Shown: piece by piece, positions 11,401-64,000 of the stretch
How the letters are laid out: the number at the start of each line of letters is the position of its first letter
Position numbering within the stretch: position 1 is the first letter of the stretch
Source of the DNA: a virus
Virus record (IMG/VR): IMGVR_UViG_3300042197_001058
Span: 1-64,000 of that record
Length of the DNA: 64,000 nucleotides
Reading direction: 5' to 3' (one strand)
Notes under the pieces: model-generated
Databases searched by the model: none
Told to the model about the DNA's origin: nothing
What the model saw: the letters and a program-made list of their open reading frames with translations, nothing else
Made by a program: the position numbers and the translations under genes

Positions 11401-11416
11401 CTGGTTCTTTAGGATT

Positions 11417-11782: not shown

Positions 11783-11808
11783 GATTCTTCTCCTCTTGTG
11801 TTGCTCGT

Positions 11809-11836: not shown

Positions 11837-11853
11837 GAGAAGTCTTTAGAAAA

Positions 11854-12012: not shown

Positions 12013-12014
12013 AG

Positions 12015-12085: not shown

Positions 12086-12086
12086 A

Positions 12087-12173
12087 CGGAATCTGAGGGA
12101 TTCGAACCCACGGAGGATTTTAACCCTCGGCGGTTTAGTAAACCGCTGCCTTAAACCACTCGGCCAAGATTCC
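12087..12173 (-). tRNA. tRNA-Ser (anticodon ACT)
   Basis: Class II tRNA with a long variable arm, discriminator G as in Ser tRNAs, anticodon stem GCGGT/ACCGC with loop TTACTAA. The anticodon ACT (A at position 34) is unusual; bacteria normally use GCT for AGU/AGC. Confidence 0.82.
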
Positions 12174-12179
12174 AAAAAC

Positions 12180-12250
12180 TGCCCAGGTAGGACTCGAACC
12201 TACAACCCAGCGGTTAACAGCCGCTTGCAACTACCATTGTGCTACTGGGC
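12180..12250 (-). tRNA. tRNA-Asn (anticodon GTT)
   Basis: Acceptor GCCCAG(T)/CTGGGC, anticodon stem AGCGG/CCGCT with loop CTGTTAA, T-loop TTCGAGT. Confidence 0.92.
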
Positions 12251-12255
12251 AATAA

Positions 12256-12341
12256 CGGAAACTGTAGGATTCGAACCCACGGAGGTTATTAGCCTCATCT
12301 GATTTCTAGTCAGACGCATTCGACCACTCTGCCAAGTTTCC
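12256..12341 (-). tRNA. tRNA-Ser (anticodon AGA)
   Basis: Class II with long variable arm and discriminator G; anticodon stem TCTGA/TCAGA with loop CTAGAAA. A34 again, reading UCU; bacteria normally use GGA or TGA. Confidence 0.85.
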
Positions 12342-12344
12342 TAA

Positions 12345-12417
12345 ATGCCCGAGTAGGACTCGAACCTACAACCAGCTGATCCAAAGTCAGCCGCTCTACC
12401 AATTAAGCTATCGGGCA
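12345..12417 (-). tRNA. tRNA-Gln (anticodon TTG)
   Basis: Acceptor TGCCCGA/TCGGGCA, anticodon stem GCTGA/TCAGC with loop CTTTGGA. Confidence 0.93.
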
Positions 12418-12420
12418 ATA

Positions 12421-12630
12421 TTATCTATCTCTATGACTTCCGCTCTCCTTTTTGCTTTCTCTAAGATATTGTGCAGCTTGTATTAACCAATGACCCATAG
12501 CTTCTAATTTATCGCACTCTTTATTAGCTAAATAAGAAGCAGTATGAATAAAAACATACTCTATCTTGCCCTTAGATAAAATATCTAGGGTTCCAACAGT
12601 AGAATCAATAAACTTTTTAGGTTTTTCCAT
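12421..12630 (-). CDS. hypothetical protein, 69 aa, inside the tRNA cluster
   Basis: Not recognised; a central helix (YVFIHTASYLANKECDKLEA) and a basic C-terminus. It lies between tRNA-Thr and tRNA-Gln with only a few bp on each side, so tRNA processing would cut it out of a common transcript. Confidence 0.7.
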   Translation of the reverse strand: MEKPKKFIDSTVGTLDILSKGKIEYVFIHTASYLANKECDKLEAMGHWLIQAAQYLRESKKESGSHRDR

Positions 12631-12643
12631 ATAATTTCCAATA

Positions 12644-12715
12644 AGCCGACGAAAGGATTTGAACCTTCAACCTATTGATTACAAATCAATTGCACTACCG
12701 TTGTGCTACATCGGC
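12644..12715 (-). tRNA. tRNA-Thr (anticodon TGT)
   Basis: Acceptor GCCGATG/CGTCGGC, anticodon stem ATTGA/TCAAT with loop TTTGTAA, T-loop TTCAAAT. Reads ACA and others by wobble. Confidence 0.92.
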
Positions 12716-12778
12716 CCGCAAGACTCGCCATTTCTGACGAGTCAAGATCGCTCTATCCACATGGGTAGACACGACAAG

Positions 12779-12854
12779 TAGGGGAAGTGGGATTCGCACC
12801 CACGATCTTCGGCTTATGAGACCGACGAGAACGGCTAGGCTTCTCTATTCCCCG
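12779..12854 (-). tRNA. initiator-like tRNA-fMet (anticodon CAT)
   Basis: Loop CTCATAA gives CAT. Position 1-72 is unpaired (C/T), and the D-stem is GAGA/TCTC with A11:T24 and AGCCT in the D-loop; both are initiator features. The anticodon stem keeps two of the three G:C pairs of initiators. T-loop TGCGAAT has G at position 55. Confidence 0.82.
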
Positions 12855-12859
12855 TCATA

Positions 12860-13027
12860 TTACATATCATACTCGTTTCGCCAAGTTTTGTCAATGTCTC
12901 GACGGGTACGCATACGTTTCGGACGATTATCAAATAACGTATTACGTTCCTCTCTGTGTCCTGTAGCCAACTCCCAAGGCTTTTTAGTCTTTATTTTAAT
13001 TTTATTGTGATTGCGTTTGGGTCGCAT
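12860..13027 (-). CDS. small basic DNRPKR family protein, 55 aa
   Basis: Rich in Lys/Arg with a GH motif followed by DNRPKRMRTRR. The 23695-23850 product has the same order (KP-W, GH, DNRPKRLRTR), so the two are paralogues. Basic small phage proteins of this type may bind RNA or ribosomes; not shown. Start 13027 is a choice between several Met codons. Confidence 0.7.
   Translation of the reverse strand: MRPKRNHNKIKIKTKKPWELATGHREERNTLFDNRPKRMRTRRDIDKTWRNEYDM
12866..12894 (-). promoter_or_regulatory. promoter of the tRNA cluster
   Basis: TTGACA, 17-bp spacer, TATGAT, inside the end of the 12860-13027 gene and just before tRNA-fMet. It can transcribe fMet, Thr, Gln, Ser, Asn, Ser, Trp and Tyr. 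Confidence 0.7.
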
Positions 13028-13259
13028 ATCGTCGTTGAGGTGGTGCATAATCAAACCATTGACCGTTTTCGTGAAGATAAAAAACCTTGTCTAAATTAGG
13101 ATCATAAGCCATTAAACAGTATTGTATAGGATAAACCGGTTTTGTCAATACTTGTTTTTGTGGCAGTTGCGGTATTTTTATATCGCCTTTCTGATAATCT
13201 TTTACACCATTATAGGCCAATCCCAATAATGCAATTATCACACCAATCCACTGGATCAT
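13002..13259 (-). CDS. membrane-anchored small protein, 85 aa
   Basis: Start 13259 follows AGGAGAG. The N-terminus is a single membrane helix (MIQWIGVIIALLGLAYNGV), then a periplasm- or cytoplasm-facing Gln/Pro-rich domain with one Cys. Not recognised. Confidence 0.72.
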   Translation of the reverse strand: MIQWIGVIIALLGLAYNGVKDYQKGDIKIPQLPQKQVLTKPVYPIQYCLMAYDPNLDKVFYLHENGQWFDYAPPQRRYATQTQSQ

Positions 13260-13281
13260 CCGCTCTCCTTTTCTTCTAACA

Positions 13282-13310
13282 AGCATATCATAATTATCGG
13301 CATCTGTCAA
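13282..13310 (-). promoter_or_regulatory. GCCGATAAT-type promoter
   Basis: TTGACA, 17-bp spacer with GCCGATAAT, TATGCT; drives 13002-13259. Confidence 0.82.
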
Positions 13311-13327
13311 TTGTTTCTTTAGTTTTT

Positions 13328-13403
13328 CCTAAGTACTTGAAAAACAAAGACTTAGAACCGAATAACGCGGAGGGACCAGCCGTAAGTGCTGTAGTCCCTT
13401 AGA
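13328..13403 (-). repeat. twin-hairpin element A, copy 4
   Basis: Starts 2 bp after the stop of the 13405-13650 gene and ends before the 13282-13310 promoter. The core is CGCGGAGGGACC. Confidence 0.78.
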
Positions 13404-13404
13404 T

Positions 13405-13650
13405 TTACAACTCGTCTTCTTTATTAATTTCCCAACCAGCTTTTCTACATATTTTATTCAGTTTAATTACTTGAGTATTTTTATCTGCTGTTACATAGTC
13501 TTTAAATCCTCTTTCATCTATATAAAAATATTCATCTAGAATATCAAATTGATTACATTCTCCTAATGTTGTAATAGCAGCATCTAAAGGATTTTTATTA
13601 GTAGAATAAATTAATTCTAGAGTACCACATTTAATATAATATTTAGACAT
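13405..13650 (-). CDS. hypothetical protein, 81 aa
   Basis: Not recognised; the sequence has strand-helix-strand character and ends in an acidic tail. It overlaps the end of the kinase-like gene by 8 bp. Confidence 0.7.
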   Translation of the reverse strand: MSKYYIKCGTLELIYSTNKNPLDAAITTLGECNQFDILDEYFYIDERGFKDYVTADKNTQVIKLNKICRKAGWEINKEDEL

Positions 13651-14218
13651 AGCTATATCTTTCTACACAGTTTGTACAATAACAAGAATAATCCTCGGCA
13701 CCATCCCAACAAACCTTTGGATACCTTTCATCTTCGTCATCAATACTTATTCCTTCAGCACCCAAATCAATTACTACCAACTTCTTTTTACCCAAACGTT
13801 TTACATAACCAAAATTGCCTTCATGACTATCACTATAGTCAATGCCATAGTATTTATACAACATCTCTAAAAGATCATTAACTTCATCGTCATACTCACA
13901 CATTCCATCATCAGAGATATAAGGACTGGCAATTTCAGTCAGATACCCCCAATTACTTAAGACCATATGAGTAACAGTACGGATACCACCACGCCCATTA
14001 GATTCTGCAAAATAATTAGGTACCCTAATTTTGCATACTGGACTATAGACTCTAGGGGCTAAATCTGAACTAGACAAATCTTTCTGCACAGCATGAGAAA
14101 AATCAGCCAAACTCTGATTTGGAAAACTTTTAAATCCGTATTTTCTGCCTTTAAGTTTATAAAATCCATTCAGACTTCCACCATCAGTAAATTGTCCTAC
14201 ATAATCAAACTTAGGCAT
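13643..14218 (-). CDS. protein-kinase-fold (phosphotransferase-like) protein, 191 aa
   Basis: Near residues 130-155 it has DSHEGNFGYVKR followed by LVVIDLG. This matches the catalytic loop (D-x-H-x-x-N) and the metal-binding D-x-G of kinase/aminoglycoside-phosphotransferase folds. No obvious Gly-rich loop is seen at the N-terminus, so it may be minimal or inactive. The C-terminus has CYCTNCVE, a possible zinc site. Phage kinases of this kind can modify host proteins. Confidence 0.6.
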   Translation of the reverse strand: MPKFDYVGQFTDGGSLNGFYKLKGRKYGFKSFPNQSLADFSHAVQKDLSSSDLAPRVYSPVCKIRVPNYFAESNGRGGIRTVTHMVLSNWGYLTEIASPYISDDGMCEYDDEVNDLLEMLYKYYGIDYSDSHEGNFGYVKRLGKKKLVVIDLGAEGISIDDEDERYPKVCWDGAEDYSCYCTNCVERYSYV

Positions 14219-14384
14219 TTCTCATCTCCGTACCAAGATACAACATATCTTCATCACAATCTACACAAACTGGAGTACCATTATCTTGATACCACCACGG
14301 AACAATATTTATTTCATCTTCACATTCAGCACAACGCCATACATGACGCACTTTAGTATCATCGACAATTTGCCAGAGTTCCAT
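14211..14384 (-). CDS. small zinc-ribbon protein, 57 aa
   Basis: Two CxxC knuckles (CAEC near residue 18 and CVDC near 40). Overlaps the start of the kinase-like gene by 8 bp. First gene after the 14409-14437 promoter. Confidence 0.75.
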   Translation of the reverse strand: MELWQIVDDTKVRHVWRCAECEDEINIVPWWYQDNGTPVCVDCDEDMLYLGTEMRNA

Positions 14385-14408
14385 AGTTTTCTCCCTTCGA
14401 TTGCTTCT

Positions 14409-14437
14409 ATTCTACAGAGTATTATCGGCTTTGTCAA
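14409..14437 (-). promoter_or_regulatory. GCCGATAAT-type promoter
   Basis: TTGACA, 17-bp spacer with GCCGATAAT, TAGAAT. Confidence 0.85.
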
Positions 14438-14455
14438 CTAAAAATCTTGAATAAA

Positions 14456-14537
14456 TCTAAATCGTTTGACGTCAAGTACTTAGAACAAATTCTCGCGGCT
14501 CGCCTTGTCCTAAGTTCTTTAGGTACAAGGCTTTATG
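14456..14537 (-). repeat. twin-hairpin element A, copy 5
   Basis: Directly after the stop of the 14539-15243 gene, before the 14409-14437 promoter. Confidence 0.8.
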
Positions 14538-14538
14538 T

Positions 14539-15243
14539 TTAGTGAGAAGGAAAAAGCACGTTAGCCAAACCACGAACACAAAGGTCACACGACACACTAC
14601 CCTTTGTGGGGGTACAAGTCACAACTCCGCGACCACGACGGATTTCGGGGCAAGTAACATATTTGGCATCGTCAATCACAACAAGTTTCGGCAACGCTGC
14701 TCGCCAAGCATCGGCCTTAGCCTTGTTACGCGGACGCTTGCTAACAATTTTCTCGTCGCTATCGCACCATGCAAAGAGTTTGAAACCAGCGGCAACCGCT
14801 TCGGCCTTATCATTAGCATCATGGATACTAGCATAGACCGCCATATACTTTTCCATAGATGATAGCCTATTATCATAGATATGAGTATAAAACCACATAT
14901 CGGGCAGAGCCTTACCTTCGGCAAGAATACTCTCACATGCCCAGACTACGTTATCAACATAGTTGGTGTCGAGTTCGCCATTGAGAAACCAATCGCCACG
15001 TTCATGCCAGCGGATACTTTTACCTTGACGCAAGGCGTCGAGAATCATAGCACGAATACGATTTTTCTCCGTGATAAGATTTTGCATACCGGCGGGACGA
15101 ACATTGGGATAAATCTTCTCAGTATTTTCGGCATAGCAACCGTTACCGAGAAAATCACAATCCGAGGGACAAGTATCACCAACCGGACGAGAAACGACCA
15201 AACAACCCTTGCCCAACTTATCGTTACCGTTTGCAACTTTCAT
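14539..15243 (-). CDS. conserved Cys-rich phage protein, 234 aa
   Basis: The N-terminus GNDKLGKGCLVVSRPVGDTC, then PSDCDFLGNGCYAE, is characteristic of a conserved phage family with a conserved Cys cluster (about residues 14, 25, 29, 36). A second cluster near the end has CPEIRRGRG and CDLCVRG. The arrangement suggests metal binding. Function unknown. Higher GC than average; own promoter. Confidence 0.75.
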   Translation of the reverse strand: MKVANGNDKLGKGCLVVSRPVGDTCPSDCDFLGNGCYAENTEKIYPNVRPAGMQNLITEKNRIRAMILDALRQGKSIRWHERGDWFLNGELDTNYVDNVVWACESILAEGKALPDMWFYTHIYDNRLSSMEKYMAVYASIHDANDKAEAVAAGFKLFAWCDSDEKIVSKRPRNKAKADAWRAALPKLVVIDDAKYVTCPEIRRGRGVVTCTPTKGSVSCDLCVRGLANVLFPSH

Positions 15244-15264
15244 GATTATCTCCTGTGTCTCGTG

Positions 15265-15293
15265 ATTCTACACTAGATTATCGGCACTGTCAA
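15265..15293 (-). promoter_or_regulatory. GCCGATAAT-type promoter
   Basis: TTGACA, 17-bp spacer with GCCGATAAT, TAGAAT; drives 14539-15243. Confidence 0.85.
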
Positions 15294-15320
15294 GAGAAAA
15301 ATTGTGGAAAAATTATTTTG

Positions 15321-15403
15321 GCGTAAGTTGTTGAAGCTAAAGGAGTTACGTCGAACCCGGCCCCTCTGATTTGTCCTAAGTCCTTACCAGCAAAAGAGTT
15401 AGA
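15321..15403 (-). repeat. twin-hairpin element A, copy 6
   Basis: Here the next upstream feature is not a stop codon but the oppositely oriented HNH gene, which seems to have been inserted between this element and tRNA-Arg. Confidence 0.78.
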
Positions 15404-15459
15404 ATCGAATATGCTTTGGTGTATATAGAAGTAGTAGCAACTTCAGATAGGAGATTATT

Positions 15460-15945
15460 ATGGCTAATTGTGTTTGTTGTGGAAAATCTACTAATAATCC
15501 TAAATTTTGCTCTAGATCTTGTTCAGTAAAAACTACTAATAAGATACCAAAAAGAAAAAAGCAAATTAGTTATTGTAAATCTTGTGGTAAAGAAACTGGA
15601 TTTTTCAGACGTAAATTTTGTACCGGATGCAATCCCATGAACAAAGACTGGAATACTATAACATATGGTGAAGCAACCAATAAGCGTAAATATCAAAAAA
15701 ATTCCAGAATAAGAAATCTAGCTAGGAATATATATAGATCTTCAGATAAGCCACAATGCTGCATTGTTTGTGGCTATGATAATCACTTCGAAGTTTGTCA
15801 TATTCGCTCTATATCATCCTTCCCCGATACTGCAACAATATCAGAAATTAATAACATAGATAATCTTATAGCGTTATGTCCTAATCATCACTGGGAACTC
15901 GATCATATTAATTTAATACTGCCGGAAGGATTTGCACCCTCGTGA
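15460..15945 (+). CDS. HNH endonuclease with zinc knuckles, 161 aa
   Basis: Only plus-strand gene of the left arm. CVCCGK, CKSCGKE and CCIVCGY give several zinc sites; the HNH core is EVCHIRSISSF near residues 118-128, followed by NLIALCPNHHWELDH. AGGAG precedes the ATG. The layout (lone reversed nuclease next to a tRNA) fits a mobile homing-type endonuclease. The last codons overlap the antisense of the tRNA-Arg 3' end. Confidence 0.85.
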   Translation: MANCVCCGKSTNNPKFCSRSCSVKTTNKIPKRKKQISYCKSCGKETGFFRRKFCTGCNPMNKDWNTITYGEATNKRKYQKNSRIRNLARNIYRSSDKPQCCIVCGYDNHFEVCHIRSISSFPDTATISEINNIDNLIALCPNHHWELDHINLILPEGFAPS

Positions 15946-15989
15946 GTCAACTTAGAAGGTTGATGCCTAATCTACTCGGCCACGGCAGC
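15917..15989 (-). tRNA. tRNA-Arg (anticodon TCT)
   Basis: Acceptor GCTGCCG/CGGCAGT, anticodon stem TCAAC/GTTGA with loop CTTCTAA. T-loop TGCAAAT has G at position 55, as in the fMet gene. Reads AGA/AGG. The 3' end overlaps the HNH gene on the other strand. Confidence 0.85.
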
Positions 15990-30520: not shown

Positions 30521-31786
30521 TTATATTATTCTTCTGATTCTTTTGGTAGCTATCATTTTTAGTTCACCAGTATCTTTATTTTCCGCAAATATCTTTACTT
30601 CATTCCATCCTCGATTAAACATTTTACGACTTAATCGAATATCGAACCCATGACGCCTATCTCCGTAGTTAACTAGGTTACTACGATACTGATTAGCATC
30701 GACAACCACAACGCTACGATTATTTATAACTACTTTAACTCTTACTCTGTCATTAACATGATCAGTATCAACCGCCCATCCTCTAACTCTATTAATATTG
30801 AATATATCCGTTCGCCCCACAATCCTTTCATCCCAGCTCTTCACCACAATCGGAGGAGCAGGAGGACTAGGAAGAGTTGGAGGATTTACTACAACAGTAA
30901 CATTTGAAGATAAAGCTCCTGTAATATTAAGCGATCCACCAGTATACACTTTATCAGTTAGGTATATACTTTTCGTAACAGTAGAAAAGATTCTTTCTTT
31001 TATTTCTGCTACACTCAAATTTCCATACTTATTACATATGGCCGCTACCGCACCAGCAACTTGAGGAGCTGCCATACTCGTACCACTCAAGTATCCATAC
31101 TGGTTACCTGGTAATGTAGAATATATAGCAGTTCCTTTAGCCCCCAAATCTACACTATTTTTCCCATAATTAGAAAATCCCGCCAAAGTCTGATTGTCAT
31201 ATCCTACAGCAGCAACTGCTATAATATTAGGCACATCATAACCGCTAGGATATCTTGGAGTTAGATCATTATCAGAAGCATTATTGCCAGCAGCGGATAC
31301 AAATACTATATTAGCATCATTAGCTAGTTGAATAGCTCTTTCTAACATAAATGAAGTTCCCGTAGTTCCTCCCCAACTAGCATTGATAGCTACTATATCT
31401 AATCCAAATGTTTTTTTCATCATTATAACATAATTTATAGCAGAGATAGCAGCCCCTGTAAATCCTAATCCACTATCATCTTGAAATTTTAAAGCCATCA
31501 AAGAGACTGGACCATAACTTGCCACTATTCCGGCCACATGAGTACCATGACCGTACCCATCCTGCACAATATTAGTATTATTGGCAAAATTCCATCCATG
31601 AATATCATCTATATAACCATTATTATCATCATCAATATTATTATTTGCTAATTCATTAGGATTATTCCAAATATATTGCTGTAGTGCTTGATGATTAAGA
31701 TCTATGCCACTGTCAATAATAGCCACAATAGGAGTTAATAAAGATCTAGTCTCTAACGATTCTACACACAATCCATGCTTTTTCAT
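30521..31786 (-). CDS. subtilisin-like serine protease (S8), 421 aa
   Basis: Complete catalytic triad: Asp in IIDSGID near residue 26, His in GHGTHVAG near 82, Ser in SGTSMAAP near 233, plus an Asn-containing SAAGNN oxyanion region. Residues 290-315 are a Pro/Val linker, and the last 100 form a beta-rich domain that may bind a target. The N-terminus CVESLETRSLLTP matches the planctomycete-type LExRxLL leader motif. No cleavable propeptide is seen. Could act on the host surface or during lysis. Confidence 0.9.
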   Translation of the reverse strand: MKKHGLCVESLETRSLLTPIVAIIDSGIDLNHQALQQYIWNNPNELANNNIDDDNNGYIDDIHGWNFANNTNIVQDGYGHGTHVAGIVASYGPVSLMALKFQDDSGLGFTGAAISAINYVIMMKKTFGLDIVAINASWGGTTGTSFMLERAIQLANDANIVFVSAAGNNASDNDLTPRYPSGYDVPNIIAVAAVGYDNQTLAGFSNYGKNSVDLGAKGTAIYSTLPGNQYGYLSGTSMAAPQVAGAVAAICNKYGNLSVAEIKERIFSTVTKSIYLTDKVYTGGSLNITGALSSNVTVVVNPPTLPSPPAPPIVVKSWDERIVGRTDIFNINRVRGWAVDTDHVNDRVRVKVVINNRSVVVVDANQYRSNLVNYGDRRHGFDIRLSRKMFNRGWNEVKIFAENKDTGELKMIATKRIRRII

Positions 31787-34345: not shown

Positions 34346-35127
34346 GCTTAGATGAAGAGAAATATATTCGTGAGAATTTTCAGTCCTTAACTTTGCAGCA
34401 AATAGCAGATAACATTAATCGTAATGTTGATCCTGTACGACGATATGCAGAAGAAAATAATCTAGCAATTATAGCAGATCATAGTGAAAATGATATCTTA
34501 AAACAAAAACTGCATACCAAAACCTTTTGGCTAGAAATCAAGCGTCAGTTTGATGCTGATAGCGGAGAACTTCAATATTTTGAGGATACATGGGTAGGTT
34601 TAATAAAACAGTTCCGAGAAGACGTTTTACCAGCAGAAGAATTACAGATTAAACAATTTATAACCATAGATATTCTTATTAATCGTTCTATGAAAGAACG
34701 CAAAAGACATATTAGCGAAACTGAAAAATTACAAAAGCTTGTAGATGCCGAATACCTTAAGCCCGAAGACCAAAGAGATATTCCCAAACTAGCAAATATG
34801 GAAACTCAATTAAGCTTTGCTAGAAATAGCATAGCGAACTATACTAATGAGTATACCAAGCTTCTTAACGAACAGCAAAAAATAAGTAAAGACCTCAAAG
34901 CTACCAGAGAGCAACGTATCAAAAGAATCGAGGACGGCAAAAGCTCTTGGGTCGGTCTTATACGAATGTTGGAAGACGAAGAAACTAGAGAACGTGAAGG
35001 ACGAGAAATGGAAATTTTAGCTATGGCCACAGATAAGGTTAGGGCTAAATTAAGTGAATATCATACTTATCAGGACGGAGTAGTAGACCAACCCCTATTA
35101 ACACCAGAAAGCGTACATAATGACTAA
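34306..35127 (+). CDS. HTH and coiled-coil protein; possible small terminase subunit, 273 aa
   Basis: Starts at TTG 34306, 7 bp after GGAGG; the start overlaps the sigma-factor gene. The N-terminus has an HTH-like pattern (TLQQIADNINRNVDPVRRYAEE) for DNA binding, and the rest is long charged helices. Small terminases combine these features, but it is separated from TerL by four genes, so the call is tentative. Confidence 0.6.
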   Translation: MEKRIIPKKRGQLSLDEEKYIRENFQSLTLQQIADNINRNVDPVRRYAEENNLAIIADHSENDILKQKLHTKTFWLEIKRQFDADSGELQYFEDTWVGLIKQFREDVLPAEELQIKQFITIDILINRSMKERKRHISETEKLQKLVDAEYLKPEDQRDIPKLANMETQLSFARNSIANYTNEYTKLLNEQQKISKDLKATREQRIKRIEDGKSSWVGLIRMLEDEETREREGREMEILAMATDKVRAKLSEYHTYQDGVVDQPLLTPESVHND

Positions 35128-36106
35128 AACAGCACTTATTACCGGAGTCACAGGACAGGACGGATCTTATCTAGCAGAGTTATTACTATCTAGAAATTAT
35201 AATGTAGTCGGATTATATAGACGCAGTAGTTCATTGAATTTTGATAGAATTTCTCATATTTCATCTCCTCAATTTTCTGTTGACGAATTTGATTTAACAG
35301 ACCCTAGTGATATAGCATCTATTATTGATAAATATAGGCCGGACGAACTTTATAATCTTGCGGCTCAAAGTCATGTAGGAACTAGTTTTAAACAGCCTAC
35401 TACCACATTCGAAATAGATACTGTTGGAGTTATTAATCTATTAGAAAATATTCGTAGATTTTCTCCTGGTACTAGATTCTATCAAGCCAGCACCAGCGAA
35501 ATGTTTGGAGCTAATTATACCTTAAAAAATAATGATAAATATCAGAATGAAGACACAATGTTTTTGCCTCAAAGTCCTTATGCGGTAGCCAAAATGGCTA
35601 GTCATCGTATGGTACAAATTTATAGAGAAGCCTATAACTTATATGCTTGTTCGGGCATTTTGTTTAATCATGAAAGTCCACGACGAGGCGAAAATTTTGT
35701 TACTAGAAAAATTACATGCTATATTGGTAAACTGATCAATAAAGTTATCAGTCCAGACACTAAGCTTAAATTAGGCAATTTAGAAGCTAGTAGAGACTGG
35801 GGTCATGCCAAAGATTATGTTTATGGTATGTATTTAATGCTACAACAAAATGTTGCAGATGATTTTGTACTAAGTACTGGAGAGACCTATACCGTACAAA
35901 ATTTCCTAGAAAAAGCTTTCGATCTCGTTGGTTTAGATTGGACAAATCATGTGATGATAGATCCAGAATTATATAGACCATGCGAGGTTAATTATCTCAA
36001 AGGAGATAGTTCTAAAGCTCGATCACATCTAGGATGGGTACCAACAGTTTCTTTTGAGAGTTTAGTTAGAGATATGGTTAATAGTGATATTAATAAATAT
36101 GCGTAA
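35120..36106 (+). CDS. gmd: GDP-mannose 4,6-dehydratase, 328 aa
   Basis: Extended SDR enzyme converting GDP-mannose to GDP-4-keto-6-deoxymannose. The NAD(P) loop ITGVTGQDGSYLAELL, the catalytic STSEMFG and SPYAVAK (Tyr-x-x-x-Lys), and NHESPRRGENFVTRK are all present. Length is near that of family members. With Fcl at 32181 it would give GDP-L-fucose, useful for glycan decoration of virion or host surface. Oddly the two lie on opposite strands and Fcl is frameshifted. Confidence 0.95.
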   Translation: MTKTALITGVTGQDGSYLAELLLSRNYNVVGLYRRSSSLNFDRISHISSPQFSVDEFDLTDPSDIASIIDKYRPDELYNLAAQSHVGTSFKQPTTTFEIDTVGVINLLENIRRFSPGTRFYQASTSEMFGANYTLKNNDKYQNEDTMFLPQSPYAVAKMASHRMVQIYREAYNLYACSGILFNHESPRRGENFVTRKITCYIGKLINKVISPDTKLKLGNLEASRDWGHAKDYVYGMYLMLQQNVADDFVLSTGETYTVQNFLEKAFDLVGLDWTNHVMIDPELYRPCEVNYLKGDSSKARSHLGWVPTVSFESLVRDMVNSDINKYA

Positions 36107-55103: not shown

Positions 55104-58100
55104 ATGGCACAGGCTTTTAACTTAACAGCACAACTTAATCTTAGAGGACCATCTAATGTTAAGAAGATTGTTGCTGATATTAGACGAGATCTTGGAACGA
55201 TTAATGCTAATGTGCAGTTTCGTCTAGATCCAACAGCTGTTAGAAATACATCAGCACTTAATTCTGCTTTACGTAATCTTAATACTACATTAGGATCCAC
55301 TACAACTAATGCTACCAATGCTGCTAGAGCCATTAGATCATTTGGTTCCGCTATTAATAGCGTAAATATCAAAAATGTGCCTCAACAAATTAACGCTACA
55401 GTTGCTAGTATCAATAAATTAAATAGTACAGCGGCAAATAGCGGCAATAGTCTAGCTGGCGCTACAACAGAGATGCAAGAATTCGGTAAACAGGCTTATC
55501 TGGCTGTTCGTAGATTTGCTGCATTTACCGGTGTCACTAGTGTTATTTTCGGTGTTACTAATGCCATTACATCAGGTATTCAAGCTTTTATTGAATATGA
55601 CAAACAATTTGTAAAACTACAACAAGTCACAGGTCAATCTGCCGCAGGACTAAAAGGATTGTCTGATACTATAACTGGTCTGTCTACAGGACTAGGTGTT
55701 GCTTCATCTGATATTACAGAGGTAGCTTCAACATTAGCACAGGCTGGTTTAAGTGCTAGAGATACAGAAAAAGCACTTAAGGCTCTGGCACTAAGTTCTT
55801 TGACTCCATCTTTCGATGATATGAATCAAACTGTAGAAGGCAGTATTGCATTAATGAGACAGTTTGGTATTAGCGCAGGAGATTTAGAAAAAGCCCTAGG
55901 CTCAGTTAATTCAGTAGCAGCTCAGTTTGCAGTAGAGTCTAGTGATATTATTACTGCTATTCAGCGTACTGGTGGTGTGTTTGCCGCTGCCAGTAAAGGA
56001 GTGTCTGAAGGAACAGATGCGCTAAATGAATTTATTTCTGTATTTACTAGTGTACGAGCTACTACTCGTGAAAGCGCAGAGACTATTGCTACAGGCTTAA
56101 GAACCATTTTTACTCGTTTACAACGAGGAGCTACAATAAATGCTCTTAAGCAATTCGGAGTAGATCTTACAGATGCAGAGGGTAAATTCGTAGGAGCCTA
56201 TAAGGCTGTAGAACTATTGTCTAGTGGACTTAGTAAGCTAGATCCTAGAGATTTGAAATTCTCACAAATTGTAGAAGAATTAGGTGGTTTTAGACAGATT
56301 GGTAAGGTTATTCCTCTTATTCAACAATTCACAACTGCACAAGAAGCCTTAAAAGTAGCACAAAGAGGCCAAGGATCGTTAGCCTTGGATGCTGCTAAAG
56401 CACAAGAATCTTTAGCTAATAAAATTACTAAAGTAAAAGAAGAATTTTTTGCTTTGTTTAGAGAGATTGGTAATTCAAAAGGTTTTCAAACTATGATACG
56501 AGGAGCACTAGATTTAACTAGTGCTATGATTAAAGTTGCAGATAGTATTAAAGGTATTATTCCGGTTTTAGGAGTTTTAGGAGCATTTAAAGGAGCGTCC
56601 GCTCTGACACAATTTACTGCTGGATTTATTGGAGGGTTCGGCAAAAAACAAAAAGTAAATTCTGGTGGATATATCAAGAAATTTGCTCGCGGTGGTGTGG
56701 TACCAGGAGTAGGAGATGGCGATACTGTTCCAGCTATGTTAGAACCCGGAGAGTTTGTGATTAGAAAAAAAGCTGTTCAAGCTATAGGAATGAATAGATT
56801 GCATAGAATGAACAAATATGCTGGAGGAGGAAAAGTTTCTATTAAAAAACTATCTGAATCTAGTAAAGGCGGATCATTTATAAAGAAAGCACAAAGAGAT
56901 AATTCAGATATTATTCAGTATGCTGACGAGGTATTTGCTACCGAAAAAAGACAAAAAATTTCACTATCAGAAGCCGACAAAAAATACTTATTTAAGCAAA
57001 GTCTTAATCCCAATCGATTCAAGCCTGGAGAAAAAAGATTTAAAGGAAGCATAGAGAATCTAAATAAAAATGTTTGGGGAACAGCTTTTGAAAATTTAAT
57101 GACTAAAAGATTAGGTAAACAATGGAAAACTACTAGTTCCAATAAAGATTATGGAGGTAGTTATCCTTTAGATTTATATAGTAGTGATGGAGATTTTGCA
57201 GAAGTTAAGTTTACAGATAGACCAGTTAGTTATCAACATATATTAAGTAAAAAATTAAGACATAAATTATTACAACCTAAAAATACATGGAAATTTACTC
57301 AGAAAAGAGATGCTGGCCCTAGAGCTATTGACTTAGGAGAAGCATTAGTTTATGAGACTGATGAGGTAGAGAAACGAAAATTTATAGAACAATTTAAAGC
57401 AGGACAATTAGAGGCTAAAAGATCTCGACAGAAATTTGCTGTAGGAGGCTCGGTACAGAGACGGGTTGGGTATATAGATTATGATGTTATAGCTAATGAA
57501 GCTAATAAAAATATTGTTGAAGCCGGGATGAAATCTTCTGGTACTACTGGCCCTAGATTATATGCTGATTATTTAACTCAATTAGCTGTTAGATCGCGTA
57601 AAGCTAATAGTTTAAACAAACTAAGCGCAGTTTATGGGGTAGCTGGTTCTGGAAAAACTACATTAGCTCGCGGACAAGGTACAGACAAAGGGAAATTAAG
57701 ACAAACAGAAAGATTTCCTATCTTAAGTCCTGAAGATGTTTCAAAAGCTACCGAAGTTTTGATATTGAGTAGCAGTGTTTCTAAGTCTAAAATGGATGAC
57801 TACTTATCTAGCGTAGATAGAGCATATACGTTGAGTAGTACTACTTCAGCAGAAAGAGAACGAGTAAGATCTCAGAGAAGTGCTAGAGATACTACTGGAG
57901 TTGGATTAGAAGGACGTAAGCCTGGAACTACTACAGGGGTATCAGCAGACACTGCTGTAGGAGAGGCTTTACTAGGAGATGCATTAGGTAAAAAATCTGT
58001 AGTTCTTGGTAGATCAACTTCTGGTAGACTAAGACGTAAAAAAGGAAATGAATTAGTAGAAACCATAAAGAAAAAAATAGGTTTCACTTGGGGTAGTTTT

Positions 58101-61100
58101 TCTCCAATGACAGCTGGCCATGAAAGTATTATGGATGCCGCGGCTGCTATGGGTATTCCGCCAGAAGATTTTCTATATTTAGTCGGATCTAATGAAGGTA
58201 TTAAAAGTGGTGATCCATCTAGTTATAGAACAGCAGTATTTGATCAAGACTTTAGAGTTATGTTGGCTAAAGCTGGTGCTGGTACTAGGGGAGCTAGAGT
58301 ATTGCCTAAGCCTAGAGATTTTGAAGTACCACAAGCGTTTGATATTACAGATCCTGGTAGTGGCCGTCGTAAAGTACTATTGCCCCAAAAGGGAAGCAAA
58401 GCTTTCGTAGCAGATAAGACAGCAGAACAAACAGAAAAATATAAAGCCGCAGGATACGGAGTAGCCAATATAGAAAGAACTGGTGGTATTAGTGGTACTA
58501 TGGTCAGAGATCTTATTCTTTCTGGTCAAACAGGAAAATTAAAAGAAGTCTTGTCTCCTGGTGTTTATGGTATTATACTTAAAAATTTAAGTAAATTACA
58601 AAATAGATCTAATGTATTACCAGAAATTATATCAGAATCACAAAAAACAGAAGCTGTATCTTTACAAGATATTGATAAAGAAATAGATAAGTTAGGAATT
58701 AAGAGAATAGATACTAAACGAGCACAGACAGATCCGGAATATGCCACCCAAGTAGAAGCACTACAAGAACTAAGAGCAAAAAAACAAAAGATTAAAAGCA
58801 TAGGATCATTTAGGCCGTATGAGATATTAGCTAGATTAGCACAAGCAGAACCAGACAAATATGCATTAGATTTTACTGATGTTCAACGTAAAAATTTAGG
58901 CGGCTTTATTCAAAAATTATCTGTTGGAGGTTTCGCCGAAGTAGCGTCCAAAGGCAGATCCGAACTATTGGGATTAGCTTCTAAGTATGGTATCGCTAAG
59001 CCAGTTAATATATATGATATATTAGGTAAAAGAGCAAGTAGTAAAACCCCATTATCCTCTTTAGAGTCAGCTACTAAACAGTCTTTTATACAGTCTATTG
59101 TTGATGCTATGTCTAGTGAGCAACAGTCAGCGGCAGTAGATAGTGCTATCGCACAAAATAGAAAAATAGCAGTTGTTGGAATATCAGGAGAACGATCATC
59201 TTCAGAAGTTAAGACTGTTGGCGCTACAGATAAAGAAACCGGAGCTTCTGTAAGAGCGGTTCCTGCCACACTACAAACAGGATCACTGCCTCCTGGAGTA
59301 GCTAAAAGAGTACAAGCACTAATTCGTAATAATGTAGAAAGATTAGTGAATGATGTTGGCAGACAGATAGCAAAAGCCGCAGGCACCTCTATACAACCTA
59401 ATCGTAAAACTTTGCGTAATATAGCCGGTAAAGATTTAGAAGATATAGCCGGATCTATTTTTGAAAAAGGCTTAGGACTAGCTAGTGGCAATTACGATCC
59501 TTCATCAAGTTCTATAGACTTTTTAGGAGGTCTTAGTAGTCCAGTTGCTTCATTACTAGGTGTTGATCCTGGTGTTATGACAGACGTAACTAATATGGCT
59601 TCTATGGATAATGCTAAAAGGAAAGTAACAAAAGGTCAATTTGATAGAGGCCGATTAGAAGCACGAAAAAAACTTGGTCGTTCACAATTTGCAGAAGGAG
59701 GCTTAGTACAAAGATTTAAATTAGGCGGATCAGTCTATGATCTGCAAAAAGGAAGTGGATTATCCAACCCAGAATTTAATGAGTTGGTAAAATTTGCTAA
59801 TACTAATGATTTTAGTATGGATGAGTTTAAAACTTATTTAGCACAAAGCATTCAGAGAAAGAAAAATAAAGCAGGACTAAGAATGAATCCTGCTAGTCTA
59901 TTAAGCGCTATTACTCCTGAAACTCCTAGAGCTACTGCTAATCAATTAGCACTAGCTAATATGCTCAAAGGACCAGTAGATGCTAAATTTAATCCAAAAT
60001 ATGACAATTCTATCAAGTATGCTGTAGGAGGAAGTGTTGAGGATACTGTACCAGCATTATTAACTCCTGGCGAATTTGTTATAAATAAAAAAGCAGCACA
60101 ACGAATAGGATCTGCTAGACTACATACATTAAATAGAGCAGATAAAATTCAAGGATTTAATAAAGGAGGTGTTGTTCAGCGTTTTGCTAAGGGTGGAACA
60201 CCAGAAAAAATGGCTGAGGCTGTTGGATCTTTTGATCCGGTATCGGCAAAAACGGAGAAAGCATTAGAGGCTGCTGTAGAACAGTTGATGGATAAAATAA
60301 TTAAAGATATTATAGCTATCAATCCTTCGGTAGGTTTTGATACCGCATATGCTCAGGCAAAAGATCAAGTTACGCAAGCAGACTTTACAACTATGAGAGC
60401 TGCTGAAACAGGAGATCAAAAAGCAGCTAATTCTGTTGCTGACGCTCAAAGGAAACAAGCATTAGCTATAGCTAAACAAATTCGATCCATAGATAATAGT
60501 ATATCTATGCAAGAAGCACTATCTGCGGCGGAAAGACAGGTTGCAGATGCTTGGGGTGGTTTATATAGACGAACAAAAACAGCTGAACAAAGCTCATCTT
60601 TATTATCTAGAGCTATGGACAATACCAGAGCAGCTATGAATAAAGCTCAAATGGCTATGTCTAAGCTTGATCAATCAGGTTTTAGTAGGGGAATGAGAGG
60701 TGTGGTTGGTGGTAACGTTGGCTTTTACGGTAGTATGGCAGTTGGTATGTTAGCTGGTCAAGGTGAAAGCTTTTTTGGTAAGAAAGATGCTAATATTAAT
60801 AATGCATCAAGAGTTGCAGCATTCGAGGCCGGAACATCTACCGTTGCCACAGGATTAGCAACGGCCAGCTCTTTAACGGCTATACCAGGGGTTGGTCCAT
60901 TCATAGCAGCGATGGTACTAGGTGTTACTGCTATAAAAGCATGGACCGATGGAGTCAAAGCTGCTACAGAAGCCGCTTTGGAATTTGCATTAAGAGAGTC
61001 TAATAGAAAAGCAGAAAATTCTGCTGAAGCATTAGGGAAGGCTTTGGATAATTTATCTAAAGATGTAAATAATGTTGATTTACAAAATTTGGTTAAGACT

Positions 61101-64000
61101 AGATTACAAGAAAATATTAAAGATAATAGTGAAGTATTTAATGATCAATTTGCTGATACTCGCAATAAAGTTATAGAGCGTACAAAATCAGAAAGAACTT
61201 TGATGGAGTGGGCTGGAGAATCTAGTTTTATTGCCCCTTTGTTAGGATATGGAGATACTACATTTAAGCCAGAGTCAATTAACAGTTTTTCTTTAACTGG
61301 TAAAGATTATGAGACTATGGCCAAAGATATGGCTCCAAAATATCAAGAAGCCAATAGAGCAGCAATGATGAGTATTGAACGTGCTCTTCGTTCTGGGGTT
61401 GCTTTAAGCGGTCAAGAAGGAAAAGATTTAGCAACAGCACCAGAATATGCTAATGAAAGAATGGCTATAATAGGATCTGATAGACAAGCATTAGAAAAAA
61501 TACTACCTTTAATGGCCAGAGAGGAAGAATTACGAAAATCAGGCAATGAAGCAGCCGCTGACGAAGTTAAAGCAAATAGAGAAGCTATTATTTCTGAGAT
61601 GATTAAAAACAATGCTTCTATCCAAGCCGCTAAAAAATCTATAGAATTAGCTAAAGCAATGGAAGAGGCTAATAGGGCTGGTAGACAACTAGCTCTTAGC
61701 TTTAATCAATTATATGATACTATTGGTCAATCTATTAATAGAATACAATTTGAGTCCAAAGCTAGACAACAAGCTGCTCAATCTAGTGTGAATGCTCTTA
61801 GAGGAAATGCTAGTATTGAACAGCTTGATTCAAAAGCTATTAATGTATTAGAAAATCCACTAGCCTATAAAAATGATCCTAAAGCGTTTAGAGAAGCAGC
61901 TGATAGTGCTGCGAATATGCTAGGTGGCAAACAAGGTCAAATGCTACGAGGAGCCGCTATAGCTTCTGTGGAACTTCCTGATAAAATGACCAATGCTATT
62001 GCTCAAGAACTTAAGGGTAATGCTGGATTAAGTCCAGAAGAGGCTGCTAAGATCGCTATCACAAAAGGTACAGAAGAGATAAAAAGTCTTAATTTACCAC
62101 CAGAAATTACTAATCAATTAATAAAACAATTAGAAGGCAATATTAAGTCTAGTCAACAGCAACTTAGTAAGGATATGGAAGAGTCAGGAGGTAATCCTCA
62201 AGAAGCCTTAGATAAGTTTATAGAATCTATTAGAGATACAAGCAAGTCTTTAGGAGAAATTGGAGCGCGAGCAGTATCAGAATCAGCAGCTCTACTAAAA
62301 GAAAGACAAAGAGCATTTAATCAATTCATCGAAAATGTTCAAGAAGCAGCAAAAGCAGCTAAATTAGCTGAAAATTATTTTAAGAGCGCTGATAAGATTA
62401 GATATCGCGGAAAGATGGATCTTAGAGAAGCACAAACTGGTGTGGGAGAAAGCTTTGAAGAAGCCAAGGCTAGATTTGATCAAGAAGTAGGAGATCTAAC
62501 AGGTGGTATTACCGATCCAACAGCTATTCGTCAAAATATACAAAATCTAGAACAACAAAGACAACAACAGCAAGAGGATCTTAAAAAAGCTAATGATGCC
62601 GGAGATGTTGACGAAGCCAAAAAACTAACGACAAATTTAACTGCTACTAATACTGCTCTTAATAATAATAGAGAAGCATTAGATAAATTAGCAGATAGTG
62701 CTGAGTTGGCACAAAAAGCTTTAGATGAAGTTAAGAATATCAAAGGATTACAACAAGGTCGTGAAGACTTTGTGAATAAGTTATTAACTGGTACGCCTGA
62801 AGAGATGGAAAATCTTAATAAGGCAATGATTAGATTACAAAGAAATCTATCTGGTGGATTAAATAATCCGGATAACCAGAGAGATGCGCGTAAAGCATTT
62901 AATGAAACATTACGACGCACAGGTAGTGTCAGAGAAGCTTCCAAAGCAGGTAATACTGTATTAGCCAACCAGCGTAAAGAAACATTAGGACTAATGCAAG
63001 ATCCTGGTTTTAGAGCTATGCTCACATTAAATATGAAGAATCAGGGCATGTCTGATCAGCAAATTGATCAAAGATTTAGACAGCAAGAAGCTACTCTTAT
63101 GAGGCAAATGGCCGTAGAGAGTGGAATGAGTCGCAATCCTATGGTTCAACAAGCAATAGCAGCCAAATTAGATCCTAATGCCGATCCTGCTATGAAAAGA
63201 GCTGCTGAGCAGTTTTTACAAACTGTTGGCTTACAAGCTAAAGCCACAGAAGAACAAGGCCGTTTAGAACTAGCTAATGCTCAAAGATTGCTAACTACTG
63301 CTACTGATGATTTAAATTTAAGTATTAAAAACTTAACTGATACTATTAATGCTAATATGGGCTTAGATGGCAAAGTAGCTAATGCTAAACAAAATGCTGC
63401 TGGTCAAGAGATGGTAGCTTTAAACTTTGGATTGCCTAGACCATCTCAACCTATGAGAGCTTCTAAGGGAGCTTTAGTTGATTTTTCTCCTAGAGGATCA
63501 GATACTGTACCAGCAATGTTGACTCCTGGAGAATTTGTAGTTAATGCAAGATCTACAGCACAACATCTGCCATTATTAAAGTCTATTAATAGTGGATCTA
63601 ATATAGTGCCAACAATTATGAGAAAGGGAGGATTGGTTTACTTAAGTCGTGGAGGATGGTTAGCCAATTCGCTTAGAAAGGATAAAACTTTAGATCAAGA
63701 CCAAACCTTTTTTGATCAGAGAGTAACAGAAGCTAATCAAGCATACTTAACAGGAGGAGGTAAAGAAGCTCTTAAACAACAGTTAGATGCTGCTGAGAGC
63801 GCTGCCGGTAACGCTGATCGCGAATATTCGTTCCTGTCTTCTGATGCCACAACACCAGAACAAGCAGCTAATGATTATGTGATGAATCAAGATAGGATAG
63901 AATGGCTTAATATGTCTCCAGAAGAAAGACAAGCGAAGGTCGCACCATTTATGGATCAGGCTCGCTCTGCCTTTAATACTAAACAAACATGGAGATATGG
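55104..64000 (+). CDS. giant tape measure protein with enzyme domains, at least 2965 aa (truncated by window)
   Basis: The tape measure sets tail length and is often ejected with DNA. Seen here: classic N-terminal tape-measure helices (to about 500); DTVPAMLxPGEFVI at 540, 1647 and 2800; a PD-(D/E)XK-like segment (E663, D690, E700-x-K702); a P-loop GVAGSGKT (845-852); a nucleotidyltransferase segment with GSFSPMTAGH (997-1006) and ISGTMVR (1129-1135). Hydrophobic segments lie near 1870-1960 (AVGMLAGQ, then GVGPFIAAMVLGVTAI). Gly-rich linkers such as FAEGGLVQRFKLGG separate blocks. The stop lies beyond 64000. Confidence 0.9.
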   Translation, partial: MAQAFNLTAQLNLRGPSNVKKIVADIRRDLGTINANVQFRLDPTAVRNTSALNSALRNLNTTLGSTTTNATNAARAIRSFGSAINSVNIKNVPQQINATVASINKLNSTAANSGNSLAGATTEMQEFGKQAYLAVRRFAAFTGVTSVIFGVTNAITSGIQAFIEYDKQFVKLQQVTGQSAAGLKGLSDTITGLSTGLGVASSDITEVASTLAQAGLSARDTEKALKALALSSLTPSFDDMNQTVEGSIALMRQFGISAGDLEKALGSVNSVAAQFAVESSDIITAIQRTGGVFAAASKGVSEGTDALNEFISVFTSVRATTRESAETIATGLRTIFTRLQRGATINALKQFGVDLTDAEGKFVGAYKAVELLSSGLSKLDPRDLKFSQIVEELGGFRQIGKVIPLIQQFTTAQEALKVAQRGQGSLALDAAKAQESLANKITKVKEEFFALFREIGNSKGFQTMIRGALDLTSAMIKVADSIKGIIPVLGVLGAFKGASALTQFTAGFIGGFGKKQKVNSGGYIKKFARGGVVPGVGDGDTVPAMLEPGEFVIRKKAVQAIGMNRLHRMNKYAGGGKVSIKKLSESSKGGSFIKKAQRDNSDIIQYADEVFATEKRQKISLSEADKKYLFKQSLNPNRFKPGEKRFKGSIENLNKNVWGTAFENLMTKRLGKQWKTTSSNKDYGGSYPLDLYSSDGDFAEVKFTDRPVSYQHILSKKLRHKLLQPKNTWKFTQKRDAGPRAIDLGEALVYETDEVEKRKFIEQFKAGQLEAKRSRQKFAVGGSVQRRVGYIDYDVIANEANKNIVEAGMKSSGTTGPRLYADYLTQLAVRSRKANSLNKLSAVYGVAGSGKTTLARGQGTDKGKLRQTERFPILSPEDVSKATEVLILSSSVSKSKMDDYLSSVDRAYTLSSTTSAERERVRSQRSARDTTGVGLEGRKPGTTTGVSADTAVGEALLGDALGKKSVVLGRSTSGRLRRKKGNELVETIKKKIGFTWGSFSPMTAGHESIMDAAAAMGIPPEDFLYLVGSNEGIKSGDPSSYRTAVFDQDFRVMLAKAGAGTRGARVLPKPRDFEVPQAFDITDPGSGRRKVLLPQKGSKAFVADKTAEQTEKYKAAGYGVANIERTGGISGTMVRDLILSGQTGKLKEVLSPGVYGIILKNLSKLQNRSNVLPEIISESQKTEAVSLQDIDKEIDKLGIKRIDTKRAQTDPEYATQVEALQELRAKKQKIKSIGSFRPYEILARLAQAEPDKYALDFTDVQRKNLGGFIQKLSVGGFAEVASKGRSELLGLASKYGIAKPVNIYDILGKRASSKTPLSSLESATKQSFIQSIVDAMSSEQQSAAVDSAIAQNRKIAVVGISGERSSSEVKTVGATDKETGASVRAVPATLQTGSLPPGVAKRVQALIRNNVERLVNDVGRQIAKAAGTSIQPNRKTLRNIAGKDLEDIAGSIFEKGLGLASGNYDPSSSSIDFLGGLSSPVASLLGVDPGVMTDVTNMASMDNAKRKVTKGQFDRGRLEARKKLGRSQFAEGGLVQRFKLGGSVYDLQKGSGLSNPEFNELVKFANTNDFSMDEFKTYLAQSIQRKKNKAGLRMNPASLLSAITPETPRATANQLALANMLKGPVDAKFNPKYDNSIKYAVGGSVEDTVPALLTPGEFVINKKAAQRIGSARLHTLNRADKIQGFNKGGVVQRFAKGGTPEKMAEAVGSFDPVSAKTEKALEAAVEQLMDKIIKDIIAINPSVGFDTAYAQAKDQVTQADFTTMRAAETGDQKAANSVADAQRKQALAIAKQIRSIDNSISMQEALSAAERQVADAWGGLYRRTKTAEQSSSLLSRAMDNTRAAMNKAQMAMSKLDQSGFSRGMRGVVGGNVGFYGSMAVGMLAGQGESFFGKKDANINNASRVAAFEAGTSTVATGLATASSLTAIPGVGPFIAAMVLGVTAIKAWTDGVKAATEAALEFALRESNRKAENSAEALGKALDNLSKDVNNVDLQNLVKTRLQENIKDNSEVFNDQFADTRNKVIERTKSERTLMEWAGESSFIAPLLGYGDTTFKPESINSFSLTGKDYETMAKDMAPKYQEANRAAMMSIERALRSGVALSGQEGKDLATAPEYANERMAIIGSDRQALEKILPLMAREEELRKSGNEAAADEVKANREAIISEMIKNNASIQAAKKSIELAKAMEEANRAGRQLALSFNQLYDTIGQSINRIQFESKARQQAAQSSVNALRGNASIEQLDSKAINVLENPLAYKNDPKAFREAADSAANMLGGKQGQMLRGAAIASVELPDKMTNAIAQELKGNAGLSPEEAAKIAITKGTEEIKSLNLPPEITNQLIKQLEGNIKSSQQQLSKDMEESGGNPQEALDKFIESIRDTSKSLGEIGARAVSESAALLKERQRAFNQFIENVQEAAKAAKLAENYFKSADKIRYRGKMDLREAQTGVGESFEEAKARFDQEVGDLTGGITDPTAIRQNIQNLEQQRQQQQEDLKKANDAGDVDEAKKLTTNLTATNTALNNNREALDKLADSAELAQKALDEVKNIKGLQQGREDFVNKLLTGTPEEMENLNKAMIRLQRNLSGGLNNPDNQRDARKAFNETLRRTGSVREASKAGNTVLANQRKETLGLMQDPGFRAMLTLNMKNQGMSDQQIDQRFRQQEATLMRQMAVESGMSRNPMVQQAIAAKLDPNADPAMKRAAEQFLQTVGLQAKATEEQGRLELANAQRLLTTATDDLNLSIKNLTDTINANMGLDGKVANAKQNAAGQEMVALNFGLPRPSQPMRASKGALVDFSPRGSDTVPAMLTPGEFVVNARSTAQHLPLLKSINSGSNIVPTIMRKGGLVYLSRGGWLANSLRKDKTLDQDQTFFDQRVTEANQAYLTGGGKEALKQQLDAAESAAGNADREYSFLSSDATTPEQAANDYVMNQDRIEWLNMSPEERQAKVAPFMDQARSAFNTKQTWRY

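Follow-up and report, generated by a model that had tools for sequence, protein, structure and literature searches.

The Tape-Measure Gene and Its Variable Zone

The window analyzed here is a stretch of 64,000 nucleotides (positions 1 to 64,000) of the viral record IMGVR_UViG_3300042197_001058 from IMG/VR, which is 83,596 bases long, and the gene in question is the tape-measure gene that begins at position 55104 and consists of a single stop-free frame of 5,017 codons. This open reading frame (ORF) is identified as a tape measure by homology and by its place among virion genes. Its N-terminal part matches the Pfam domain PhageMin_Tail (E 5.7e-22), seven tape-measure PHROGs match the ORF (each at E ≤5.1e-14), and terminase, portal, and head-protein matches lie upstream. 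A tblastn search with the first 579 residues matched 158 phage records; among the best 40 of these, 18 are annotated as tape measure, several records annotate the same gene as a (lytic) transglycosylase, and SPbeta YomI is included (24.9% identity over query residues 80-492, E 4e-13). The gene carries an internal variable zone (within residues 577-1766 of 5,017), which appears to be an array of enzyme-like modules separated by glycine-rich linkers. The features are as follows.

55104..63998 (+), tape-measure gene, first 2,965 of 5,017 residues; in the source record it continues as far as base 70157
55665..56282 (+), PhageMin_Tail domain (Pfam), conserved tape-measure core, residues 188-393; 94% identity to the core segment of the relative L008
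56655..56834 (+), linker 1, residues 518-577, GG...GDTVPAMLEPGEFVIRKKAV...MNKYAGGGK; the cargo zone has its left border here, with DNA homology to L008 ending at residue 576
56853..57428 (+), NUC1 module, PD-(D/E)XK-like, with Glu663, Asp690, Glu700-x-Lys702, and Lys716 (alignment, model, motifs)
57426..57458 (+), linker 2, about residues 775-786, RQKFAVGGSVQ (sequence)
57459..58058 (+), P-loop half of the P-loop and nucleotidyltransferase module, residues 786-985, Walker A GVAGSGKTT at 845 (alignment, model, motif)
58068..58622 (+), putative nucleotidyltransferase half of the same module, residues 989-1173, GSFSPMTAGH at 997 and ISGTMVR at 1129 (profile, model, fold search, motifs)
58899..58943 (+), linker 3, residues 1266-1280, GGFIQKLSVGGF (sequence)
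58971..59663 (+), NUC2 module, about residues 1290-1520, matched by its profile over 1323-1518; another PD-(D/E)XK-like pattern (profile, motif)
59682..59732 (+), linker 4, residues 1527-1543, SQFAEGGLVQRF...LGG (sequence)
59733..59978 (+), small module SVYDL, residues 1544-1625, present in 12 of 44 tape measures
60009..60179 (+), linker 5, residues 1636-1692, the second of the PGEFV type; the cargo zone has its right border here (sequence)

A preliminary description of the window, made from its letters alone, had placed nuclease, P-loop, and nucleotidyltransferase motifs at 57069-58509 and between Gly-rich linkers. The motifs (E663, D690, EVK 700-702, Walker A, GSFSPMTAGH, and ISGTMVR) do fall at the residues named there, and linkers are present at residues 518-577, 775-786, and 1266-1280. 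When the zone was compared with phage records, the sole match was a stretch of 48 residues at linker 5, found in two records of the cyanophage Synechococcus phage S-SCSM1, whose matched gene is annotated as a lysozyme or endolysin. The PGEFV-type linkers, for example at 56718-56756 and 60036-60077 of the window, match the tape-measure PHROGs 6090, 25241, 37649, and 8010, and this type of linker also matches two PHROGs of unknown function (35029 and 13338). Because it matches several PHROGs as well as the S-SCSM1 gene, the PGEFV-type linker is a wider feature.

Cassette Exchange Between Sister Phages

Related contigs were collected with a query for the tape-measure core, which gave 24 contigs, and with a query for the P-loop and nucleotidyltransferase module, which gave 32 loci; both groups, counted once per contig, together with the window and earlier matches, make up a set of 44 tape measures. 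The window and L008 are sister phages: across the 10 kb that precede the tape measure they are collinear, with 86.6% nucleotide identity. Within the gene, the two DNA sequences are 83.9% identical as far as residue 576, the end of linker 1; homology is absent from residues 577-1355, a 70% match follows at 1356-1533 and a short match at 1683-1713, and identity returns to 84.2% from residue 1767. The proteins match over residues 1-582 and then from 1263, where NUC2 is 54.6% identical, leaving 680 residues (583-1262) unmatched. A global alignment of the same pair, scored per 100 residues, gave 94-99 in four of the first five blocks and 89 in the other, 9-21 in blocks 601-1300, and 72-97 over 1801-2700. 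In the unmatched part, L008 carries module families other than those of the window, and the cores of the two proteins evolve slowly (ratio of nonsynonymous to synonymous substitution rates, dN/dS, 0.047). Similarly, the core of L053 is 0.91 and 0.90 identical to those of L034 and L017, whereas its P-loop and nucleotidyltransferase module shows 0.42 and 0.40; L017 and L034 are alike in both parts (0.87 in the core and 0.90 in the module).

The borders of the exchanged segments were evaluated in 30 of the 44 tape measures, after 10 near relatives and L036, L037, L052, and L059 had been dropped. In a seed-free test, 54.9% of 1,070 local-alignment ends fell within 12 residues of a linker motif, compared with a mean of 20.8% and a maximum of 29.3% in 1,000 circular shifts; the automatic cargo regions of this test extend too far in part of the proteins and end too soon in others, the ends are non-independent, and conserved linkers themselves favor nearby alignment breaks. 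In the seed-based count, a linker-like motif was present in 95 of 108 gaps, and 72 of 321 motifs lay inside modules versus 222 expected, figures that are partly circular because the seeds were cut by eye between linkers. Taken at the level of aligned sequences, these data show that whole cassettes are replaced between sister phages and that alignment breaks are concentrated at linkers. The available text of a survey of phage protein mosaicism describes tape measures as often mosaic by sequence, with no genuine recent case confirmed (PMC10684548); unlike that outcome, the window and L008 look like recent tape-measure mosaicism at the DNA level.

The P-Loop and Nucleotidyltransferase Module

An alignment of this module (residues 786-1190) from 13 loci shows no variation at the Walker A, TxGH, and ISxT positions. 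The module profile matched the solved structures of MJ0951 (E 8.9e-5) and an NMN (nicotinamide mononucleotide) adenylyltransferase (E 0.0013). The AlphaFold2 model of the whole module is alpha/beta, with a predicted local distance difference test score (pLDDT) of 86.0 and a predicted template modeling score (pTM) of 0.82. Residues 989-1173 of this model matched NadD, CoaD, and NMN adenylyltransferases at Z 12.0-13.3 throughout the best 50 rows, on a scale where Z 7-8 is typical for models without a clear match, and the root-mean-square deviation was 2.4-3.2 in 49 of these 50 rows. Foldseek returned phage cytidyltransferase-like proteins among viral predictions, with E down to 1.5e-6, and NadM as the best match in the PDB (E 1.2e-3), none there reaching E ≤0.001; the other PDB rows included ParA, USP, and ATP sulfurylase. 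Pfam CTP_transf_like scored 15.2 bits on the window, under its curated cut-off of 21, which is a threshold of the model and no property of the enzyme. There is thus strong support from the model for assigning the second half to the HxGH superfamily with the NadD/CoaD/NMN adenylyltransferase fold, and this is the strongest of the three domain assignments.

The P-loop half is less certain. It is assigned by its Walker A motif, with weak fold support from Foldseek: zeta toxin 6epg was matched at E 0.047 (probability 0.92), and PseT and zeta toxin appeared weakly, lower in the list, among viral predictions, while the Z-scored fold comparison barely covered this half. The preliminary description had likened the pair to the kinase and adenylyltransferase of NadR in reverse order. 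The order is indeed reversed, with the P-loop first and the nucleotidyltransferase second, and the likeness itself comes down to a superfamily resemblance, in which a NadR chain was matched weakly (E 0.19) and only through the nucleotidyltransferase motif and the P-loop half weakly resembled zeta toxin and PseT. Membership in NadR is not supported, since the order is reversed and a kinase match is lacking. The fold as modeled does not reveal substrate specificity; a substrate related to nicotinamide adenine dinucleotide (NAD) is one option, and CoaD-type and cytidylyltransferase-type chemistry also fit the fold.

The preliminary description had named loss of the catalytic residues in all relatives as a result that would speak against it; nearly all of the relatives compared keep them. 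All 33 module copies retain TxGH and ISxT (V allowed for I), and 32 retain Walker A. The exception, L063:10001-11266, has a broken Walker A (GAAANRKS) with intact TxGH and ISGT motifs, which may mean that the two halves are separable in function. The best-segment identity of the relatives' modules is 29-72%, and pairwise dN/dS was 0.04-0.24 over 9 pairs, 4 of which had dS >1 (for example, 0.19 at dS 0.34 for L017/L018 and 0.16 at dS 0.52 for L010/L013). Retention of the motifs in such divergent relatives is, as far as sequence comparison can tell, more than chance and reflects purifying selection.

All 32 viral loci with this module place it within ORFs of at least 1,726 residues, 30 of them with the tape-measure motif and 2 left-truncated. 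Two pattern scans, with a reach limited to the patterns, confirmed no relatives in bacterial or archaeal genome contigs. Because many contigs were found by means of this module, its frequency of 33 in 44 is an overstatement; the core-based figure is 13 of the 24 tape measures found via the core query alone. When the nucleotidyltransferase alone was searched against phage records, 9 records were returned at E 0.08 or worse, several annotated as cytidyltransferase, and one of these weakly matched cytidyltransferase records is located among DNA-metabolism genes.

Nuclease-Like Modules

NUC1 contains WGTAFENL at residue 658 (with Glu663), YPLDLY at 687 (with Asp690), and AEVKF at 699 (with EVK 700-702). 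In an alignment that includes the window, all nine sequences keep the Glu and the Asp, and 8 keep (D/E)xK, L045 having ETR. The model (pLDDT 71.6, pTM 0.65) has an order of elements and strands that fits the alpha-beta-beta-beta-alpha-beta core of the PD-(D/E)XK superfamily. Its best 50 fold matches were all influenza entries, nearly all titled PA endonuclease, at a weak Z of ≤5.2; the first two Foldseek matches were also influenza (E 0.12, weak), and the later rows were of mixed folds at E 0.97 or worse. The influenza PA endonuclease is a PD-(D/E)XK nuclease. The NUC1 alignment profile had no match among solved structures. Its motifs and the order of its strands make NUC1 a candidate PD-(D/E)XK-like nuclease, for which fold support is weak.

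Among the 34 NUC2 copies caught by pattern, 25 have (E/D)xKR and 9, namely the window (59451-59594, TDVTN) and 8 relatives, have TDVTN or TDATN. The usual lysine is absent from the window copy, so its NUC2 is perhaps inactive, and in a lineage of such copies the catalytic lysine may have shifted position or disappeared. The central claim of the preliminary description, three enzyme-like domains on the tape measure between Gly-rich linkers, stands, at unequal strength: the nucleotidyltransferase is strongly supported, the P-loop is assigned by its Walker A motif and the nuclease by its motifs and strand order, with weak fold support for both. The models of NUC1 and of the P-loop and nucleotidyltransferase module are alpha/beta, not the purely helical fold that would have spoken against such domains.

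Module Repertoire Across Tape Measures

Past the conserved core, each tape measure of the set shows a run of modules split by Gly-Gly and PGEFV-type linkers, and all 24 contigs of the core query carry at least one module. From 25 seed modules, 22 types remained once close variants were merged, 3 of them present in one protein only; many ORFs extend past the fetched DNA, and modules lying beyond it are missed. There are 32 different module orders in the 44 tape measures, or 30 in 39 when four left-truncated sequences (L036, L037, L052, and L059) and the short L019 are left out; L008 and L009 are identical over their loci and may be the same virus. Among the modules, an SNase-like one matches an endonuclease PHROG (E 4.2e-4) and Pfam SNase below its cut-off (E 0.0038), and an HAD phosphatase-like one matches PHROGs for 5'-3' deoxyribonucleotidase (E 4.5e-4) and polynucleotide kinase (E 0.0019). 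The ADP-ribosyltransferase (ART)-like modules have ExE in 14 of 14 and LSxS in 12 of 14, with LLSTS in the alignment of the other two; these counts are a looser reading, as a first, stricter pattern matched 5 of 14. In the zincin-like modules, HE[LM]TH occurs in 15 of 17 and HELGH in the other 2, and one zincin-like module, ZINC_A, is present in 17 of the 44 tape measures. GNAT- and kinase-like modules were named by eye; the KIN module of L017 and L051 appears kinase-fold-like, with WLDAHGSNMGYDKKGNPTVID in L017. Cargo of three relatives, used as queries (zincin, HAD with NUC2, and GNAT), returned no match at E 1e-3 from 50,697 records of cultured phages. As judged from this set, the domain trio of the window represents a single draw from a large pool of exchangeable modules, and the variable cargo zone holds more than one insertion.

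Complete tape-measure ORFs of the set range from 2,959 to 5,017 residues, which implies that tail length varies widely or that cargo is not counted towards it. Near the C-terminus of the tape measure L003, at residue 4710 (source base 69231), there is an HPD motif (WLHPDLP) in a J-domain-like stretch, for which Pfam gave no match at E 0.05.

Interpretation

We propose, with a probability of about 0.6, that the tape measure is a polyvalent carrier of linker-bounded, exchangeable enzyme cassettes that are released into the host to act there. The internal zone, with its enzyme-like modules and the Gly-Gly linkers that connect them, would lie between an ordinary tape-measure core and a long C-terminal portion, and related phages would exchange these modules as in-frame cassettes bounded by the same linkers. 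The modules would be folded and active, would travel with the tail, and at infection would enter the host with the tape measure, before phage gene expression. Such a release is suggested by the carrier itself and by the available descriptions of polyvalent proteins (PMC5512222) and Tme (PMC11126660). Once inside, the modules would act on nucleic acids and nucleotides, here as nuclease and kinase-like/nucleotidyltransferase, and might disarm host defenses or reshape a nucleotide or cofactor pool. That the module set is so often replaced suggests an arms race with hosts.

Several points weigh against this proposal. We infer the loading, activity, and delivery of the cargo, and it is physically problematic to fit globular domains into a narrow tail tube. 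As the core evolves slowly, its contrast with the cargo could be partly a difference in rate, even though the families of modules are not the same. Every relative found is a viral contig from a metagenome collection. Cargo zones of 16 relatives and pieces of the window gave no Pfam match above the curated cut-off; the HAD, ART, and zincin profiles gave nothing significant against solved structures (best E 0.15, to an HAD-family hydrolase, 0.029, and none, respectively); and the names of the ART-, zincin-, GNAT-, and kinase-like modules rest on motifs. To these are added the weak fold matches of NUC1. The missing lysine of the window's NUC2 and the broken Walker A of L063 suggest that some of the modules may be inactive.

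An alternative places the action of the modules at the virion and the envelope and not in the cytoplasm: they would help in assembly or processing, with zincin-like modules as maturation proteases, or would be parts of the tail tip, and would not be host-directed effectors. The frequency of ZINC_A would agree with this, and envelope-degrading tape measures are ordinary, as the lytic transglycosylase annotations among the matches listed indicate. However, nucleotidyltransferase-, HAD-, SNase-, and ART-like chemistry would be of no obvious help in building a tail, and sister phages have exchanged the set even though their upstream 10 kb remain collinear (87%); we regard a virion or envelope role as unlikely.

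A narrower form of the carrier proposal holds that the exchangeable cassettes match host defenses, and that here the kinase-nucleotidyltransferase pair would rebuild NAD or a related cofactor at DNA entry, before gene expression, and so defeat NAD-depleting immunity. The accessible part of a preprint (PMC13232231) describes NARP1, by which phages reportedly restore NAD in the face of NADase defenses. We hold this specific form to be quite doubtful.

The modules might instead be derived from enzymes yet catalytically idle, serving as spacers or structural decorations that drift and recombine. Losses of catalytic residues point this way, including TDVTN/TDATN in 9 NUC2 copies versus (E/D)xKR in 25, the L063 Walker A, and ETR in L045. 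Spacers, however, would not need conserved active sites, and the intact TxGH and ISxT motifs (33/33), Walker A (32/33), and low dN/dS (0.04-0.24 in 9 pairs) make idleness decidedly improbable. That the variable zone is an artefact of assembly, or that separate genes were fused by chance, is very hard to credit, even with every sequence coming from metagenome contigs and with L008 and L009 identical over their loci, given one stop-free frame over 5,017 residues and the same kind of architecture in 44 contigs, with linkers at most module joins.

Relation to Known Systems

The polyvalent proteins described by Iyer et al. (2017) combine several unrelated enzyme domains, such as peptidases, ARTs, kinases, and GNATs, and are proposed to be injected with the DNA (PMC5512222). 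The tape measures described here are similar in carrying disparate enzyme domains, several by motif only, in a single virion-linked polypeptide. They differ in that the carrier is a tape measure with internal cassettes, whereas the accessible text of that paper contains neither "tape measure" nor "tape-measure"; the nucleotidyltransferases it names there are of the Pol-beta, RelA/SpoT, and GGDEF types, and that of the window is of the HxGH type. Tme, the tapemeasure-related effector of a contractile injection system of Streptomyces davawensis, is likewise a tape-measure relative bearing an enzyme, an endonuclease reported in the available text to be active and particle-loaded (PMC11126660). 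Tme, however, belongs to a cellular system and has one C-terminal EndA-like endonuclease, whereas here a phage protein carries many internal modules exchanged among relatives.

NadR, which joins an NMN adenylyltransferase to a ribosylnicotinamide kinase, shares with the window the linkage of an HxGH nucleotidyltransferase to a P-loop domain and differs in having the adenylyltransferase first and the kinase second. Polymorphic toxin systems also swap enzyme cassettes on a conserved carrier, but their toxin domains, in the descriptions available, are C-terminal and not internal arrays. SPbeta YomI has a related N-terminal region and bears a lytic domain, in contrast to the candidate nucleotide and nucleic-acid enzymes found here. 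No enzyme-module array in phage tape measures came up among the papers listed in our literature search, which did not reach most subscription journals or bioRxiv. Polyvalent proteins and an enzyme-bearing tape-measure relative were thus known before; what we consider new, and did not encounter in the literature covered, is an internal, linker-bounded, exchangeable enzyme array within the tape measures of phages.

If the proposal is true, the ruler of the tail would also be a carrier of early effectors, and these phages would provide a natural set of carriers with cargo in linker-bounded slots. They would also allow a test of whether parts of the tape measure that lie off the rod contribute to the length of the tail.

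Other Features

The gene directly 3' of the tape measure in L004 (L004:6158-9727) has an FGE-sulfatase-like domain (PF03781, E 9.4e-9), a fold that also occurs in variable receptor-binding proteins. Elsewhere in the window, 13 tRNA genes lie within 3848-15989, a DUF932 protein is encoded at 9032-10123 (-) (E 2.4e-50), a Subtilase-family peptidase S8 at 30521-31786 (-), upstream of the virion genes (E 2e-41), and a GDP-mannose 4,6-dehydratase at 35120-36106 (+) (E 6e-114).

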